A stretch of 64,000 nt of DNA from a secondary endosymbiont of Ctenarytaina eucalypti (GTDB taxonomy: Bacteria; Pseudomonadota; Gammaproteobacteria; Enterobacterales; Enterobacteriaceae): positions 558,001 through 622,000 of the forward strand of contig NC_018419.1 of NCBI RefSeq assembly GCF_000287335.1. Reading direction: 5' to 3'. Position 1 is the first letter of the stretch; every line of letters begins with the position of its first letter. Positions 9,399 through 21,208 of the stretch are shown here, in pieces. Made by a program: the position numbers and the translations under genes. The notes under the pieces were generated by a model, which was not told where the DNA came from, did no database searches, and was given only the letters and a program-made list of their open reading frames with translations.

Positions 9399-12227
9399 CA
9401 TAGATTAGCCAGTAGGTAGCGGGTCAAATGCATACGTTTATTCGTGCGACAAGCAATAGGATCAACTATTAGGCTACACTCTAATTGTAACGACGAATGT
9501 TAACAGTCCTACTATTCCCTATAATATATCTTGTTGAAAATATCCAACTGCACATCATTTCTCGATTTACTCACTACATTCATTGCCACAATTTTTCTCT
9601 ACTATCACCAAAAAAGTTGCGTGACTACCCAGTAGTTCACTAATAAGAAAACTATAAGCGATATTATGCTCTGCAACAATCGATGCACAATCGCACCATG
9701 ACGGGATGGTGCGATAAAAAGAGACGCTTTTTTTTAAAAATCATACCGAATGACCTGCCGACTCATATGAGTCCCATAACCATAGCTCCAGTTAACTATA
9801 TGCGTCTTTTCCCTTGCGATCAAGGAATCGCAGATCTTCGTGGGACCGAGTGTTAAAATGACGGCTCTATTGCTAAGAAACTCAAGCTATTTTTCTTCTC
9901 GAGACTCTAATAAAGACAGTAGATTTCGGAATCAAAATATCAACACCATATGATACTGTCAATGTTACTTTTTTTATAAAACTGACCTAAAAGAGTTAGG
10001 TAAATTTGTATAAAATTTTAGTAGAATGGTATTTGTAGCTCTAACGTAAAACGTCTACCGCATCTACCAATAGCTAGAGACATACATCACAGCATTGTGT
10101 GTAACGATTGCTCGTATAACACAGTTCTACTGATTTATCGCGTCGATCGGATCAAACAACTCTAACTTACCATAACATTCGCGAAGCATCTGACGCAGAT
10201 GATTGCGATACGTATGAGTGTTATGATCCTCTGTTACAATAGGCGCTAAAGTCTCTTATTCGACGGTATCGGGCTAGCGGAATTAACTAAGCCAGCACGA
10301 TGAGTATCTACGTAACCGGATTGAAACTCAAGATCACGGCTGACATGATATAGTGACGCCATGAAGAGATAGCAACTTACTGCGGGCGCCTCACACACTA
10401 AAACAGCCACGTGACAGCTTTAACTTACTGCTAGTAGAGCATTTTTTAGTCACAAGCGCTCATTTTTTAAATACAGACGTTGAGAAGCTTTTTAAGAAAT
10501 AGATTGTATCCGATGGGTACAGAAAGCTCCGCAATCCCTAGAAGAGCAAAGAATGTAGCGATAACTCTTGATAACTTTCTTTCTAAGATGAAAGCATTTT
10601 TCTATTAAAAATCATCGACTACGTCATTTCCAAGTGTTTAACTAGTCGCACTACACATCGCGATTAATTAGAACCTTCAGTTGACTTATGCTAGAGTTGT
10701 CAAGACTACAGGCCGCCGCGGCACACTAGGCTAGCTCAGAACAGCTTCTCAGGATGCATGAGTGCATCACAGTATACATATGATACATACGACTATCTAC
10801 GCATCAGAAAAAAGCAACAACTATGATGCCCATGATAGAATAAATAATCTAATCTTAGCATTTAACTACGGTGTATGCCGTTTTTTTTAGAAACTTCTAT
10901 CAAAAACTTTTACTTATTGTCCTAGCGCTTCAGGAGATCCCACCGGCGCAAGAATGTAATAGCCTTTTCGCAGCACACCCAATGCCAAAACAAGCCATGC
11001 TGAGTCCCTAATACGGTTTGAGAACGGCCTTAGACTTCATCAATCGTTATCCTAAAATCGGCTGAGAGAAGCAAGTGCCTAGCAAGGGCTCGGTGTTAAA
11101 TAAAAAGAGTTTCGTAACAGCGTTATATGGGAAAGTGGATACTGAAAAAAATACCACGATCCTGATTATGACAACATGCTCCTCCGAGATAGAGAGAAAA
11201 AGAACCCCTCTTTCGGTAGAAAACACTCTAGAGTAAATGCTTTACGCACCGATTTCACATACTAACGATGACAACTTATTCATTTCCTATTTTCCAAAAT
11301 CCTTACAGTAACTTATCGTTTTTGGGACAGTGCCTAGCTGAGGCCTAAAGTGCTACAAGCCTAGAAAATAACGCCACCAGGCAAGAAACAAGTTCACGAC
11401 AACAGTATTGAATGGATTCGACTGGCAGGAGAGCAAAATAAAAAGCTTGATGGTGTTGTTACCAATATCTTTAGTATATTATTAATTCTACGAACCACGG
11501 ATTGCTCTTCAGTACTATTCTACCGCCGAGAGATGATAGAAGGGTATCGGTTAAGTACATGTGGGGTTCTCTAGGTCTTATAGCAGGGATGCTAGGGAAG
11601 CTCAGAGCTACACTCAAGGCTTGCAGGTACCGCCCCGCGTCCTTCTACATTGCAAGAATAGGGTTTTTGCCGAGCTTATGGTGCCGCGCCCGCGTTATCT
11701 AGACTGGGCAGAGCTATTACGTAACTCAATCGCTAGTGGAGATAAGTTTAGCGGGGTTGATACGCTCGCTCCATGAATTATTTTGACCCTGATCTAGGAC
11801 AAGGTATGCGCTACGGAAATTTTCACTGCAATAGCACGCAGAAATCGTGAGCTTATAATCGTCTGAGTATCGTTAGACGAAATTAGCATAGTAGGAGTAT
11901 TATTCCTCAGGACTACATTCTGAGTGACGCAGAAAACCAAGGTTGATGTTTTTTTGCAACTCAAGATGCAGAGTCAGTGCTGAAATATCGTGTCGCGATA
12001 AAAGAAAAGCAGAAAATTATATATTTAGCTACAGAATCTAGTTAAATATCAAATACTTAAGTAATGCTAAAGATATCAAAAAATTTTACTTTCCCCCGTA
12101 TACTTTTGCTAATGCAGCTATAAAATGTAGACATATCGTTAAAGCTCCGTGCGAGCGCAAAGCCCGCAGGGGGCGCTTAGATGCTATAGGTCAGTCAAAG
12201 TACTCACTGTTGCCGTAATAACCTGGC
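9399..12227. other. Eroded intergenic region between tsaB and cspC
   Basis: About 2.8 kb without a gene. A perfect 9-bp stem at 9691-9714 (loop of six) lies 290 bases after tsaB. A GC-richer patch at about 11500-11780 has two overlapping open frames (one contains RVLLHCKNRVFAELMVPRPR) and may be the last trace of a gene, but it matches no family I recognise. In other enterics this interval holds genes such as pabB, sdaA, manXYZ and rlmA; none can be read here. Confidence 0.5.
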
Positions 12228-12437
12228 TTATAGGGCAGTCACATTGACTGCTGAAGGCCCTTTTTGGCCATCTTGGATTTCAAATTCGACGCTCTGGCCT
12301 TCGGTTAGAGTTTTAAAGCCGTTACCCTGAATAGCGGAAAAGTGAACAAATACATCTTTGCTGCCATCGGCCGGAGTGATAAAACCAAAACCTTTAGATT
12401 CGTTGAACCACTTCACTTGACCTTTGATCTTTGCCAT
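12228..12437 (-). CDS. cspC: Cold-shock-like protein CspC
   Basis: A 69-residue single-domain cold-shock protein that binds single-stranded RNA and DNA and acts as an RNA chaperone and antiterminator. It differs from E. coli CspC at only a few positions. RNP1 (KGFGFI, residues 15-20) and RNP2 (VFVHF, residues 29-33) are intact. [10 protein letters not shown] and AVNVTAL fit CspC better than CspE. The start is the ATG at 12437 with AAGGA upstream; the frame stays open further upstream only because it crosses the yobF tail. In E. coli yobF and cspC form one transcript; here yobF is broken but its end, directly upstream, is kept. Confidence 0.97.
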
Positions 12438-12460
12438 CTTGCATATTTCCTTTGGAGTGT

Positions 12461-12598
12461 TTAAATCGTTTTTTTGGCGATACAGAGACAAACGCGAGTC
12501 GTTACTGCTTAAAGCAATCAGAGAAAAATAGGGCTAGAGAAGCGATATACAGCTACATCATCTACATGAAAAACTTCTTTACTAAAAATCCTACTCAT
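12461..12598 (-). pseudogene. yobF: yobF remnant
   Basis: Small gene upstream of cspC, too short for normal ORF calling. Read from the ATG at 12598 the frame gives MSRIFSKEVFHVDDVAVYRF, then SSPIFL, a TGA, two residues, a TAA, and then [15 protein letters not shown] before a final TAA at 12461. E. coli YobF (47 residues) has the same start pattern (IFSKEV, YRFS) and ends in AKKTI. The length (45 codons) and both ends are kept, but two in-frame stops break the middle. YobF is a small stress-induced protein of unclear role. The intact end sits in the cspC leader. Confidence 0.8.
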
Positions 12599-13582
12599 AA
12601 ACAAAACTGCACCTCATTTACTAATATTGGGTTATCACATACCACGTAAATAATGGCAAGCCATTTTTAATCAGGGCCGGGCGTATCCTGAAAAATTAAG
12701 ACACTGCGTGACTCCCCGCGCATCAATTGATGCGCGATCACCACCCTGTTAAACTAAATGATAACTCTGTTCTTTTAATTTTATCGCACAAATTTTGTTT
12801 TTTTACAAGCATCTTGCAACCTGTTACATCTGACTATAAAGAAAAACCATTTTTTACTTCAAAATATTCAGGGGCTTCATCACTCACCGCTCTGCTCAAG
12901 CAGACCCTGCATAGTAGGCAGAATTTTTTCATCAGATGTATGACCAGTTCAGCAGAAGCATCTTAACTAAGATAACTCCATCAAAGCCTCAAGTAGTGCA
13001 TCATGCAGAAAGTCGTTAAGGTAACGGCGTGCCATGGTTGAGTAAATACGTTCCATGTGTGAAAAATATTCACGCCATCTAACTATTGACATACAACAGA
13101 TATAGAACTCATCTAATTGGGATACATTATTATTAAATCCTTACCTATTAATTTTTTAGGATTAATTTCTGCCCCTCATTGAACGGAGTGTATATGTTAA
13201 TAAACTGGCCTGTTTATTAAACATCAATATTTTATGCTGATAAGCACAACAAAAAGTTACTTAAAGAGAGGTATTATCTCAAAAACAGCTCATGTAGCCA
13301 AGGTCAAAAAAAACTAGTCGGGGGATTGATAATCAAGAAGTGATCATCTTCACTTAGGGAAAATACAGCAATCTTGAGGCGGGGATCTATAGGTGTGAAA
13401 ATGCGCAAAAGAGAAGACGTGGCAATTAAATAAGAAACACTAGATTCTATCCTCTCTTGTGACCTCCCGAAAAAGTAATATTCTGCAATGCTCAGCACTT
13501 TCACGCATATCTATTGACTATTTCTCTTTTTTTGTATACTCTAATGAAATTAGATTTAATAAAGTACACTTTTGCATCCCAT
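12599..13582. other. Intergenic region between yobF remnant and tRNA-Thr
   Basis: No gene recognised. A perfect 20-bp palindrome (CGCGCATCAA and its complement) lies at 12717-12736, upstream of the cspC-yobF unit. A 66-codon minus-strand frame at 13304-13504 resembles nothing I know. The right end holds the likely tRNA promoter. Confidence 0.5.
13514..13540 (+). promoter_or_regulatory. Candidate sigma-70 promoter of tRNA-Thr
   Basis: TTGACT (13514-13519) and TATACT (13535-13540) with a 15-base spacer lie about 43 bases before the mature tRNA 5' end. The spacer is one to two bases shorter than ideal. The position fits an independently transcribed thrW. Confidence 0.5.
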
Positions 13583-16065: not shown

Positions 16066-16770
16066 CTATTGACGCTGCCTAGATATCGCTTGTACCATTT
16101 GTTCTACTAAACGGGAAGAACGTTGCGACGCAGCGGTAAGAAAAGTTTTAAAGCTTAAATGAGATAGGTGATCGGCGAAATCAGAAATGACGCGCACTGC
16201 GATGAATGGCACGGAAAAATGGTGACACACGTGGGCGATAGCGGTCGCTTCCATTTCTACCGCAATCGCCTGAGGAAACGCCTGACAGATGCGGGATAAA
16301 CCTACAGCACCGTTGATAAAAGCATCACCAGTAACCATTAAACCGTATACGGCATGCATACCAAGGCGACCAATTATCTCCTCCGTTAGCTTCACTAGTG
16401 ATGGAGGAACGTTAAATGACACTGGACACTGCGCCATCTGACCTAGCTCATAGCCGAAAGCTGTAAGATCTACATCGTGATAACGCAGTTCATGAGGTAT
16501 CACAATATCACCAACTGTTAGCAACGGAGCTAGACTACCGGCGGCGCCTGTGTTAATGACCAGCTCTGGCTCGAAACGATTCAGCAATAGCGTCGTCCCT
16601 AACGCGGCGGCAACCTTACCGATCCCAGATTTGACTAGAGCTATCTCAATACCGTGTAACTGGCCGATATAAATTTTATACCCCGCCTGCTGCTCAATCT
16701 TAGGTTTCTTTAAGCAATTTTTCAACTGCGTGATTTCCTCTTCCATGGCACCGATAATGCAAATTTTCAT
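16066..16770 (-). CDS. mtn: 5'-methylthioadenosine/S-adenosylhomocysteine nucleosidase
   Basis: MTAN (Pfs) hydrolyses S-adenosylhomocysteine and methylthioadenosine to adenine plus the thioribose product, removing inhibitory by-products of SAM-dependent reactions. The 234-residue protein aligns end to end with E. coli Mtn (232). The start [12 protein letters not shown] includes the catalytic Glu12. SGDAFING-type residues appear as TGDAFING, followed by the substrate-binding [13 protein letters not shown] and the catalytic-Asp block [13 protein letters not shown]. The gene stands alone; btuF and other usual neighbours are absent. Functionally it pairs with metK, 1.3 kb away and divergent. Confidence 0.97.
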
Positions 16771-18099
16771 AAAATGCGTTCCTGTTATAACTATTCACCA
16801 ATCCTAGATCGCTGAAGTACAATGACAGCACGTTCTTTCATCAACTGACATGTGTAACGGGTTTATTTCCTGAAAGATTTTTATACGATGAGGAAAGTAT
16901 ACGGCATGTTTAACGCGGCAATACGGTGCAACACTGTAAGTATTACACTCGCCACACTAATATCTATTGTATTTAGGCAGCATGAAATGAATCGCAATAG
17001 TGTTTTAATTGAAAATATAGCCGTTTCAGCAAGAAAAATGCCAGTGATAAACTACTATCTTTTCCAGTTAGTCTTTTTCCGATCAAAAGACCGATAGTCA
17101 ACTACGAGGTTACATGCATAGTGATGCTATTATTTTAGATTAAAAAATATTGCATACCCTTGCTATAGAAGAATAAAAAAGCTATATATGCTACCCCACT
17201 CAAGAATCAGGGCACTACCTTGTCTCGTCAACACCGACGAGACAAGGTAGTGCCCTGATTCTTGAGTGGTTTTATCCTGTATTCCAGGTGCGTCAATTCT
17301 AGTACTCTCCCATACATCAGGCACAGATCATTAATTTTATGTATTGCTGCCTCCCGTACAAGAACGGAACTAACCCCCTTCAACCTGCGTGTATTCATAC
17401 TCTGTTAACACACTTACTATGATTCTTCACTAAAAAAATTTTAGACTACCTCTATCATAGAATCAAGGAGCACTTCCGCCAAAAACTGACATTTTTGTGC
17501 TGATATGAACTGTCTGTGATGATTTAATGTAAAAATAACATTTAAGATATCTACAAGACCGCTGTATAAGTTTCTATATCGCATACATGCAGCACCGTGA
17601 TGCTGAAGAAAAGAGCTAAGCATCTGTTTCATTATCAAAAGTATGCTGATGTCAGCATCTAAGTAAAAATAATCGGCACTGCCGCTGAAAGGAGGTGCTC
17701 TCTCCATGCAGCACTAATAAATAAAAGATAACTGATCTATCGATACTGTTAGTAAACTTCACCGCTAAAAAGATTAGTTATTCGATAGGCCGGTGAATAA
17801 TTGTAACCTTTCACTTGACTATAGAGAGCATGTGTTAAAATACACGCAGCATTTTTGCACTGATAATCAGCTAACATGTCAGTGTATTCAAAAAAATTAT
17901 CGGCATTCAATAAAAAGACCTTATGAAAACAGGCATCTATACGTCAAGGCGTTGATGGACATTACTTTTTGCTTCTTTAAGACCACTTCATCAGAAAAGA
18001 TGATGAAGTCTAGCGTTACCATCTGAAAATCGGGCATTATAAATAGCTTTTTCCAAGGAGCGCCCAGTCATTTCCAAACCGAATCAAAGGTAAAAATTA
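16771..18099. other. Intergenic region between mtn and metK
   Basis: No gene recognised. It contains the long perfect hairpin at 17196-17269 (listed separately) and a 9-bp stem at 17985-18009, about 90 bases before metK, which could lie in the metK leader. speA, the usual divergent neighbour of metK, is not readable. Confidence 0.6.
17196..17269. repeat. Perfect 34-bp inverted repeat (hairpin)
   Basis: Left arm 17196-17229, loop AACACC at 17230-17235, right arm 17236-17269. All 34 pairs match. The arms are about half G+C and stand out in AT-rich surroundings. TTTTA follows the right arm. The arms resemble no gene I recognise. The element could be a terminator, a structured RNA or a palindromic repeat. 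It is far longer than the other hairpins I noted. Confidence 0.95.
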
Positions 18100-19254
18100 A
18101 TGGCTAAAAATTTATTTACATCCGAATCTGTTTCAGAGGGGCATCCTGATAAAATTGCTGACCAGATTTCCGACGCCGTTCTCGATGCTATTCTGGCCCA
18201 AGATCCTAAAGCACGTGTCGCCTGTGAAACCTATGTTAAAACGGGAATGGTCCTTGTAGGTGGCGAGATCACCACCAGCGCCTGGGTAGATATTGAAGAA
18301 TTAACGCGTAGTACTATCCGTGAAATCGGTTACATTCATTCGGATATGGGGTTTGACGCTAACTCTTGCGCAGTTCTGAACGCTATTGGTAAACAGTCTT
18401 CTGATATTAAGCAGGGTGTGGATCGCAGCGATCCGCTGGAACAGGGCGCGGGTGACCAAGGGCTAATGTTTGGTTACGCGACTAATGAAACTGATGTGCT
18501 GATGCCGGCGCCAATCACCTATGCGCACCGTTTAGTAGCGCGCCAAGCTGAGGTTCGCAAAAGTAGAGCCTTAAGCTGGCTACGGCCAGACGCTAAAAGT
18601 CAGGTTACTTTTGCCTACGAACAGGGTAAAGTGGTAGGCATTAAGGCTGTAGTGTTGTCTACGCAGCACGCAGAAGAGATATCCCCTCTGCAGCTGGAGG
18701 AGGCTGTGATGGAAGAGATTATTAAGCCGGTTTTACCTACGGCATGGCTCTTCCCTCAGACAAAATATTTTATCAATCCAACCGGGCGTTTCGTAATCGG
18801 CGGCCCTATGGGTGACTGCGGACTAACTGGACGTAAAATTATTGTCGATACCTACGGGGGAATGGCTCGTCATGGTGGGGGGGCTTTTTCCGGCAAGGAT
18901 CCGTCTAAGGTCGACCGTTCAGCAGCATATGCCGCCCGCTATGTGGCAAAAAACATCGTCAGCGCAGGTCTGGCGGAACGCTGTGAACTGCAGCTCTCGT
19001 ATGCTATCGGGGTGGCGGATCCGACATCTATTGCACTAGAAACCTTCGGAACCGAAAAGATCCCCGTGAAGCACTTGACGGCCATAGTACGCGAAGTCTT
19101 CGATCTCCGACCGTATAGCCTCATCAGCATGTTAGATCTTTTGCGGCCAATCTACCTCAGAACGGCTTCCTACGGCCATTTTGGGCGAGAAGATTTTCCA
19201 TGGGAAAAGATCGATAAAGCCGCATTACTTCGTGACGCTTCAGGCCTAAAATAA
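18100..19254 (+). CDS. metK: S-adenosylmethionine synthetase
   Basis: MetK makes S-adenosylmethionine from methionine and ATP, the methyl donor for the cell; it is essential. At 384 residues it has the same length as E. coli MetK. The ATP-binding GHPDK (residues 14-18), [12 protein letters not shown] in the middle, and the glycine-rich phosphate loop [17 protein letters not shown] are present. The last contains seven consecutive G in the DNA without a frameshift. The start at 18100 is preceded by AAGG. No MetJ box of the AGACGTCT type is visible upstream, so methionine repression may be lost. Neighbours on both sides have decayed. Confidence 0.98.
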
Positions 19255-21208
19255 TACACTACAGGCATAAAACCGTATACCGAAATGGTATTTGCTTTGT
19301 TTCTTCTGGAAGTGACTCACCAGTATGCCGACTGCTAATCGCATATGCATTCAACAGAGGTGCGTTACTGCATAGTCTCTGACTGATTATAAAATGACAT
19401 TCGCAATACTACACTAGTATCTATGGTGTTCATTTTAAAGACTGATTGCTTATTTCCGCTTAGAGAGAAAAGATGTAACCTGAAATTCTTTAAAATCTTA
19501 TGTGATAGTTCTATTAAAACCACTCTCACAGGATTACCTCAGATTGTCATCTAGTTTTACAGAAAAAACCGTATCTTAACTTCCATTGTGTGACAGCGCA
19601 TTATCGTAATAGTCTATGGCGGTATTACCAATCTCAATCAGAAGTACGCTATCCCACGGGTGCTTTAAAAATATTTTTTTTGAATCAGTGAAAATATTAT
19701 TATGTGAGACCGCTAGCATGGCCTTATCATTGTTCATTCAAGCGGTCTTTGGGACACCTCAATGTCATGCAGTTAAGCTGCTGTAGTCATTAATATCGCT
19801 TCTTCATATTGTGCATCATAGTCAAGCTGACTCAGATAATTACCCCAGACGTCTTTAACTAAAACTTCTGTGTGTATTTCAGCCCATCACTTTTATTGTG
19901 AGCACTGACAGGATTGCAAGTCTCATCATCGTTGATCAGATCATAATTTTCAAGTTTAGAGTTTTTCTTATCAGTAGAATAGGGTCGGGGACATTATCCC
20001 GTTCCGTGAGATCGTTCGATATCATTTTTTCTATAACTTTTAGATAAGCGTGGTATTAGCCACATATATTCATATTAACGCATACTCTCTATGAAAAACG
20101 TTCATAGCACTTCTTCCCCCCCAATGAAAAAACCTCAAGTATAGTCCTTGTCTGACATTCTAGATCAAGGCTTCAGCAATGAATGCATAGACAAGGGAAG
20201 TGAATCTTAGATGACGGATACGATGAGTCTTCTACACAAAAGTGTTATCAGAATAATATTGCTGATGGAACAGTTTTTGAACGAAGAGTGAAAGCTTACA
20301 AGGTCGTCATCGACGTGATTTTTAAACTGCTTGCACTACACTCAAGACGCCTGAATAATACTGTTCTTAGCAACTAAGAACAAAGAGTGCATATCAAGAT
20401 CAAAGTGTCAACATGGGTTGAGATTACCCCAAATTGAGTCATGCACAAGCGTTATCCTTAAGGCTATTTGCTGTAGGGGAAGAGACAGTCCGAAAGGAAG
20501 GTGTCGAAAAAAGAGTAGACGTTCGGTCTATCTGGGATGTAGATGCACCAAAAAATAAAATTATCGGAGTACGCTGTATCTAGACGGCCTTAAAACTCAT
20601 TCATTGCCTCTTTTGGGTTTCACCAAACAAATTTCCCTCAGCAAACAATCTAGAAAGCGCTGGCTAGCTTCGCCTTAATATCGCTTATGATACATATACG
20701 TGTAATGGAACTCGAGTAAGGAAGAAAATAACACCACTGCATCCTGATCTTTAGGATGCAGTGGTGGCGCGTGCCCATACCATAAGCGTAATCCTACATT
20801 TAAAAATAAGCATCTGCATGGCAGTCATTGCACCTTCGAAGAGATCATAGGTTATCGCTCATTGCAAAAACTATTGTCAGGTTTAAACAACTTCTGGACG
20901 CTCATCTAAGGCCGCGTCACGAGAATCAACAGTTAGGAGAAATATGATGGAAATGATCAAGATGCTTCAATGAATGAAGCCTGTCAGGAAGACGTCTATC
21001 ATTCGCTTTGAGTTACAATAACCTAAGAGGTTAATGCGCTACACTTTTTTTCAACATAATTAACGGTCACTTACTTGATACGCCTTCCCGTTTGAAATAA
21101 CCAATAAACGTTTTATTTAACGTAAAATATACTATAATCATACCATCACTTACACGACTCTAACTTACATTTTAAAGAGCTGATTCAGCTCAATATGGAG
21201 AAAGTATT
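19255..21208. other. Eroded intergenic region between metK and sodA
   Basis: Nearly 2 kb without a recognisable gene. It holds a run of eight C at 20116-20123 and a perfect 14-bp hairpin at 20732-20766 (listed separately). Confidence 0.6.
20732..20766. repeat. Perfect 14-bp hairpin
   Basis: Arms at 20732-20745 and 20753-20766 (CACCACTGCATCCT and its complement), with a 7-base loop GATCTTT. No U-tract follows, so it is not a typical intrinsic terminator. It is too long to be expected by chance in a window of this size. Confidence 0.8.

Follow-up and report, generated by a model that had tools for sequence, protein, structure and literature searches.

In Escherichia coli, template switching can turn a quasipalindrome into a perfect or more perfect one (PMC7202029), and perfect stems have been proposed to result from a single template-switch event (PMC8794818). 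In Blochmannia, 20, 10 and 6 large palindromes are described, all but two of them at least partly intergenic, and the authors state that, in the absence of selection, palindromes of this kind would probably be lost by decay (PMC3017870). In the titles and opening lines of abstracts covered by our literature search, which took in few subscription journals, we found neither the class of repeats described below in the present genome nor a template-switch origin of symbiont palindromes.

The inverted repeat in the mtn-metK spacer

The window, the whole 64,000-nucleotide stretch of DNA analysed here, contains a decayed divergent spacer (16771-18099) between an MTA/SAH nucleosidase gene on the minus strand (16066-16770), for which we use what we take to be the short name, mtn, and metK on the plus strand (18100-19254); both names come from NCBIfam. 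The focal inverted repeat in this spacer consists of a left arm (17196-17229) and a right arm (17236-17269) of 34 nucleotides each, separated by a loop of six nucleotides (AACACC, 17230-17235). All 34 of the 34 pairs match, so that either arm is precisely the reverse complement of its partner, and the left arm has more C than G, like most of the class to which we assign it. In four order-1 Markov simulations, based on the first 464 kb of the sequence sampled from this genome, the longest arms arising by chance were 11-12 bases. The earlier note had described a perfect 34-bp repeat with a 6-base loop that chance could not produce, and the simulated arms, none longer than 12, bear this out. Its observation that the arms are richer in GC than their surroundings also holds, with 18 of 34 arm bases being G or C (53%, counted by eye) versus 36.7% for positions 17001-18000. 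Positions 17186-17285, taken as RNA, have a predicted folding energy of -69.7 kcal/mol (z -16.9), and none of 200 shuffled sequences folds as well. A second perfect inverted repeat of the class is present in the window, with 14-nt arms (20732-20745 and 20753-20766), a loop of 7 and a position outside open reading frames (ORFs) of at least 100 aa.

Because speA precedes metK in relatives, and mtn and metK lie more than 1 megabase apart in the relatives G004 and G026, which appear to be Sodalis-like, we interpret the spacer as holding a rearrangement junction. Two of the relatives that appear to be Sodalis-like still align with the final ~210 bp before metK, at 62-63% over 211 bp and with E values of 2e-13 and 1.5e-12. 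The earlier view that the neighbouring DNA has lost all recognisable sequence thus fails for this part of the spacer, and stands directly around the repeat, where no homology is detectable. Neither arm has significant homology to the speA-metK region of the relatives by blast, global alignment or shuffled Smith-Waterman comparison; the global alignment puts the left arm beside the start of speA, with scores not significant against shuffles. A profile built from the speA 5' regions of 18 relatives likewise gave no match to the region of the focal repeat.

A class of perfect inverted repeats

We sampled 40 stretches of 20 kb from the genome, which together with the window make up 864 kb (60% of 1.44 Mb), and searched them for inverted repeats with perfect arms of at least 14 bases and loops of up to 40. 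The sample contains 38 such repeats. Of these, 27 have arms of at least 16, 17 of at least 18, 12 of at least 20, 7 of at least 25 and 5 of at least 30 bases. The loops of the 27 repeats with arms of at least 16 measure 0-18 nucleotides, and the longest word common to any two of the 38 arms is 8 bases. One of these repeats (L034 13262-13311) is a perfect palindrome with 25-bp arms and a loop of 0, and to its left borders a frame with 136 open codons.

Seven relatives with a GC content above 0.38 were sampled to a total of 949 kb (G004, 200 kb; G026, 100; G001, 100; G028, 80; G011, 40; G080, 40; and G037, a genome of 759,425 bp, 389). This larger sample contains two repeats with arms of at least 16, one with arms of at least 18 and none with arms of at least 20, a significant difference from the focal genome at all three lengths (27 vs 2, p 2.4e-7; p 3.3e-5; and 12 vs 0, p 1.4e-4, respectively). 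The pooled test does not include the AT-rich genomes G052, G015, G008 and G046, in which palindromes arise more often by chance, a choice that was made after the counts had been seen. G052 (29% GC, 1,121,596 bp), presumably the genome of the sister symbiont published together with the focal one, has 3, 2 and 1 repeats with arms of at least 16, 18 and 20 in 400 kb; two of the three consist of A+T only or nearly so, and one has 22-bp arms and a loop of 36. The corresponding counts are 2, 2 and 0 in 100 kb of G015 (19% GC), where both repeats are A+T-only and 18 bp long, and 4, 1 and 1 in 100 kb of G008 (25% GC), and no arms of at least 16 were found in 40 kb of G046. In G008, a reduced relative of 2,034,350 bp, we observed a 38-bp perfect inverted repeat with an 18-nt loop (L115 11241-11334).

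A mismatch-tolerant search (loops up to 20, score of at least 14) returned 38 repeats, of which 34 have no mismatch, two have one and two have two; short arms with a mismatch drop under the score limit, so the excess of mismatch-free repeats is overstated for short arms. For arms of at least 20, the numbers with 0, 1 and 2 mismatches are 11, 2 and 2. Three of the four imperfect repeats (L137, L050 and L136) are loci that the perfect-arm search also returned, there with shorter arms; the mismatches in these three sit close to the loop. L049 is the only new locus among the four. Given that a steady birth and decay of repeats predicts classes of nearly equal size, the 34 mismatch-free repeats require a further process: re-perfection, the loss of many repeats to indels, or a recent burst. 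Such a burst is one possible cause, and another is that one arm repeatedly corrects its partner. The predominance of mismatch-free arms is in keeping with the 'recent origin or active maintenance' proposed earlier for the focal repeat.

The arms also differ in base composition. In the 5' arm, which is the same on both strands, C exceeds G in 22 of the 27 repeats with arms of at least 16, G exceeds C in three and the two are equal in two (p 1.6e-4). Taken together, these 27 5' arms contain 176 C and 87 G. The lean towards C is weaker in the shorter repeats of the genome and is still significant at arms of 8 (158 vs 97); it is not significant in the relatives. The density of the class, its near-perfection and its C-rich 5' arms are unusual.

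The repeats are depleted in open frames. Only 6 of the 38 fall within ORFs of at least 100 aa, which cover 51% of the bases (p 7e-6), and 5 fall within ORFs of at least 150 aa, which cover 46% (p 1.7e-5). One of the six is in a 115-aa ORF of L044 that is probably not a gene, a match to secG and tRNA-Leu being located to its left.

Copied arms and competing explanations

We consider it probable that the focal repeat is a product of mutation and not an element, one arm having been overwritten by a template switch, and that the same process generated the other perfect repeats of the genome. The nascent strand would leave its template during DNA synthesis, copy a short nearby stretch in reverse, either from its own new strand or from the sister strand, and then return, which would leave one arm replaced by an exact reverse-complement copy of its partner. 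Where a weak palindrome existed beforehand, this would amount to quasipalindrome correction, and the products would be tolerated mainly in spacers and pseudogenes. The class has the features by which template-switch products may be recognised, namely loops of 0-18, perfect arms and no shared word longer than 8, with the search itself having required perfect arms and loops of at most 40.

To determine which arm is ancestral, we aligned repeats to orthologs in tuf, ispH, rnb, ubiD, arnT and rsmJ and in the L125 and L138 regions; the cases in coding genes were drawn from repeats inside open frames and are a biased set. An overwritten arm is seen in a tuf pseudogene (L040 7523-7598, plus strand; the EF-Tu identity is taken from the sequence of a relative). 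Its left arm has a collinear counterpart in the opening tuf codons of two relatives and matches at 24 of 34 positions, a score equalled by 13 of 5000 shuffles in place, by 61 and 43 of 5000 with wider targets and, when all 460 bases serve as target, by 33 of 2000. The right arm matches the relative at 8 of 34 positions (1420 of 5000 shuffles as good) and replaces the codons that follow, with no gap or change in length. Homology resumes to the right of the repeat (0 of 1000 shuffles as good), and the 60 bases to its left are not significantly similar when taken alone (475 of 1000). At the corresponding site of the relative, 11 of 34 pairs can form.

Four further genes point in the same direction. 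The left and right arms match at 16 and 12 of 18 positions in ispH (L134 9112-9152, vs the relative G004), 12 and 7 of 14 in rnb (L043 11713-11748), 12 and 6 of 14 in ubiD (L052 16720-16748), the latter two each compared with one E. coli strain, and 11 and 6 of 17 in arnT (L050 1928-1971, vs one E. coli sequence), where three columns of the left arm are an insertion. In rsmJ (L052 2736-2777), both arms match at 16 of 20 positions and a 13/20 palindrome of the relative has become 20/20, so that both arms have changed towards a perfect palindrome and the direction of copying is not assignable. In rsmJ, ispH, rnb and arnT the reading frame runs through the repeat without a stop, and the ubiD repeat is at the extreme end of its frame. 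In five of the six readable cases, of which arnT is the weakest, the sense strand thus has the ancestral sequence in its 5' arm and the copy in its 3' arm. Short-range template switching, or quasipalindrome correction, leaves this mark, an ancestral arm accompanied by its own reverse complement.

All six readable genes are on the plus strand, although frames of at least 150 codons are equally divided between the strands (197 plus, 194 minus). Polarity relative to the replication strand, as assigned from GC skew, is mixed across the cases. Across the sampled stretches, the skew takes positive values below ~200 kb and above ~985 kb and negative ones in between, except for one stretch at 700 kb, which suggests that the terminus and origin lie near the changes at ~200 kb and ~985 kb. 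Elsewhere, the alignments of the L125 and L138 repeats, in collinear but decayed regions, give no polarity (we take the L125 region to be an argC-argB remnant, named from the translation of a relative), the genes on either side of the repeat at L052 8727-8793 are not adjacent in relatives, and no homologous flanking sequence occurs within about 1.2 kb of either L135 repeat. Because the ancestor of the mtn-metK spacer is unreadable, we infer from the class that the focal repeat (17196-17269) arose by the same kind of template switch; which strand switched and which enzymes took part are inferred as well. The C asymmetry of the 5' arms is left without explanation by the template-switch account, and the confinement of the readable genes to the plus strand does not yet fit it.

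Other origins would leave different traces. An artefact of the library or assembly, in which fold-back molecules or wrong gap filling insert a reverse-complement copy into the consensus, would agree with arms that are almost always perfect (34 of 38), and fold-back artefacts of library preparation are known. We nevertheless regard this as quite unlikely, because the depletion of the repeats in open frames (p about 1e-5) is attributable to selection against hitting genes and would not be given by a consensus artefact. Moreover, a gene interrupted by a repeat should show long open stretches to its left and right, and no noncoding repeat has at least 70 open codons on each flank; this many open codons are found on one side only, at L034, L137 and L048 on the plus strand and at L137 17693 on the minus strand. 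G052, which we presume to have been published alongside, also has only three arms of at least 16 in 400 kb. Judged from sequence, genuine mutation followed by selection would explain this avoidance of open frames better than errors of sequencing would. A mobile-element remnant at the rearrangement junction, whether fused IS terminal inverted repeats or a palindrome resembling a MITE, is very improbable, even though the spacer joins regions more than 1 megabase apart in G004 and G026. The arms are single-copy, matching only themselves in the genome (a single contig of 1,441,139 bases), and the arm search called for earlier returned no match in 98 relatives, the window's own genome being the sole match among the 99 searched. 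Exact-match searches with a 20-base core of the arm found nothing in the genome_contigs or viral_contigs collections, and a 251-base query found no match in plasmids; these collections may omit records very near the window's genome. No target-site duplication is visible by eye and the other repeats of the genome are unrelated to the focal one. We therefore reject a mobile repeat, MITE or IS end, for which there is no second copy in the genome or its relatives; the mobile palindromic repeat suggested earlier is not supported, and the focal repeat is unlikely to be a mobile element on these comparisons. The same 251-base query matched 41 phage records (E 0.2-0.8), all at query bases 15-86 (window 17114-17185), to the left of the repeat and without touching the arms; 39 of them share one 42-base, 81% match in capsid or hypothetical genes of Lactococcus and Streptococcus phages. 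Given these E values and their position outside the arms, we took the phage matches to be due to chance.

A hairpin kept by selection for a function in RNA or DNA, as an intrinsic terminator, an mRNA stabiliser or another cis element of the sort suggested for Blochmannia, would account for the very stable fold, for the near-perfect arms and for the location of 32 of the 38 repeats outside ORFs of at least 100 aa. At the focal locus, the weak U-tract TTTTATCC (17270-17277) directly follows the right arm and could permit terminator action on the plus strand, and a mechanical ORF of 88 aa on the minus strand (17441-17707) is directed at the repeat. There is also a slight excess of T across the class, 8 of 64 flanks of noncoding repeats having at least 5 T in 8 bases versus about 3 expected. 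Against this, mtn and metK diverge from the spacer with no ORF of at least 100 aa between them, and the hairpin is not followed by a U-tract on the minus strand. The usual terminators have arms far shorter than the 30-34 bp seen here. In addition, the arms share no sequence longer than 8 bases, and repeats are found within the tuf pseudogene and in the middle or late parts of ispH, rnb and rsmJ, where termination would be harmful. We therefore judge selection for function to be an unlikely origin, and termination does not explain the class. For the focal repeat, the terminator proposed earlier is a weak candidate, which gains something from TTTTATCC and the T excess and loses from the divergent genes, as no recognised gene reads into the hairpin; a hairpin scan returned it only with its stem cut at 20 pairs, so that the 'tail' given there is still stem. 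For the alternative of a structured RNA, Rfam has no match over the repeat at the gathering score and no relative was found. The only Rfam matches in the window are one tRNA and a cspA thermoregulator RNA, the latter (12197-12623, minus strand) having been kept in an eroding genome.

Proposed template switching here and its counterparts in known systems

Since the hairpins in the pseudogene and in genes arise by copying of an arm, the perfection of a hairpin in eroded DNA does not on its own show that it has a function, and hairpins in shrinking genomes need have none. Under the template-switch reading, the genome provides dozens of candidate events for natural short-range switching, and the process is seen altering clusters of amino acids in retained genes. 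More speculatively, this lineage may have an unusually active template-switch regime that makes and re-perfects hairpins with a fixed polarity (the copied arm 3' on the sense strand, the 5' arms C-rich), perhaps after a loss of repair, that has rewritten amino acids in ispH and rnb, and that could explain symbiont palindromes taken to be selected; we consider this broader proposal possible but rather doubtful. E. coli repair proteins were searched against the 60% genome sample. Exonuclease I, RecJ and RecB matched over nearly their full length, MutS matched only a pseudogene, which tblastn recovers as six pieces in shifting frames (L129 10125-12264, genome about 380,125-382,264), and SbcC, SbcD, XseA, RecA, RecC and RecD had no match in the 60% of the genome sampled. 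The apparently full-length recB is at L137 10130-13648; a neighbouring recD would fall within that stretch and had no match.

The mechanism and the kind of structure are already known, from E. coli, yeast and RNA genes for the former and from the palindromes of Blochmannia for the latter. The quasipalindrome mutations described in E. coli, for which the nascent strand serves as template, resemble the changes in rsmJ and ispH. They are reported from engineered lacZ reporters with an 18-bp quasipalindrome, whereas the arms in the present genome reach 34 bp and are fixed at many loci, and the tuf repeat needed little prior palindrome, with 11 of 34 pairs in the relative (PMC7202029). The account of template-switch RNA hairpins, which draws on rRNA and microRNA genes, has one event giving a perfect stem and discusses a base-pair asymmetry between the sides of the stem. 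The asymmetry given there is of G-C over C-G and U-A over A-U, while here it is the opposite, a C-rich 5' arm corresponding to C-G pairs (PMC8794818). In yeast, template switching is described as homogenising arms inside protein genes with clustered amino-acid changes, as seen here (PMC8604942), and the mitochondria of Nematomorpha are described with perfect repeats inside genes, also as here but reaching 284 bp (PMC6649704). Blochmannia, like the present symbiont, has a reduced insect-symbiont genome with long palindromes. The palindrome search reported for it allowed up to three mismatches, whereas perfect arms were required here, and the pseudogene and coding cases of the present genome, in contrast to the selection invoked for Blochmannia, point to a mutational source (PMC3017870).
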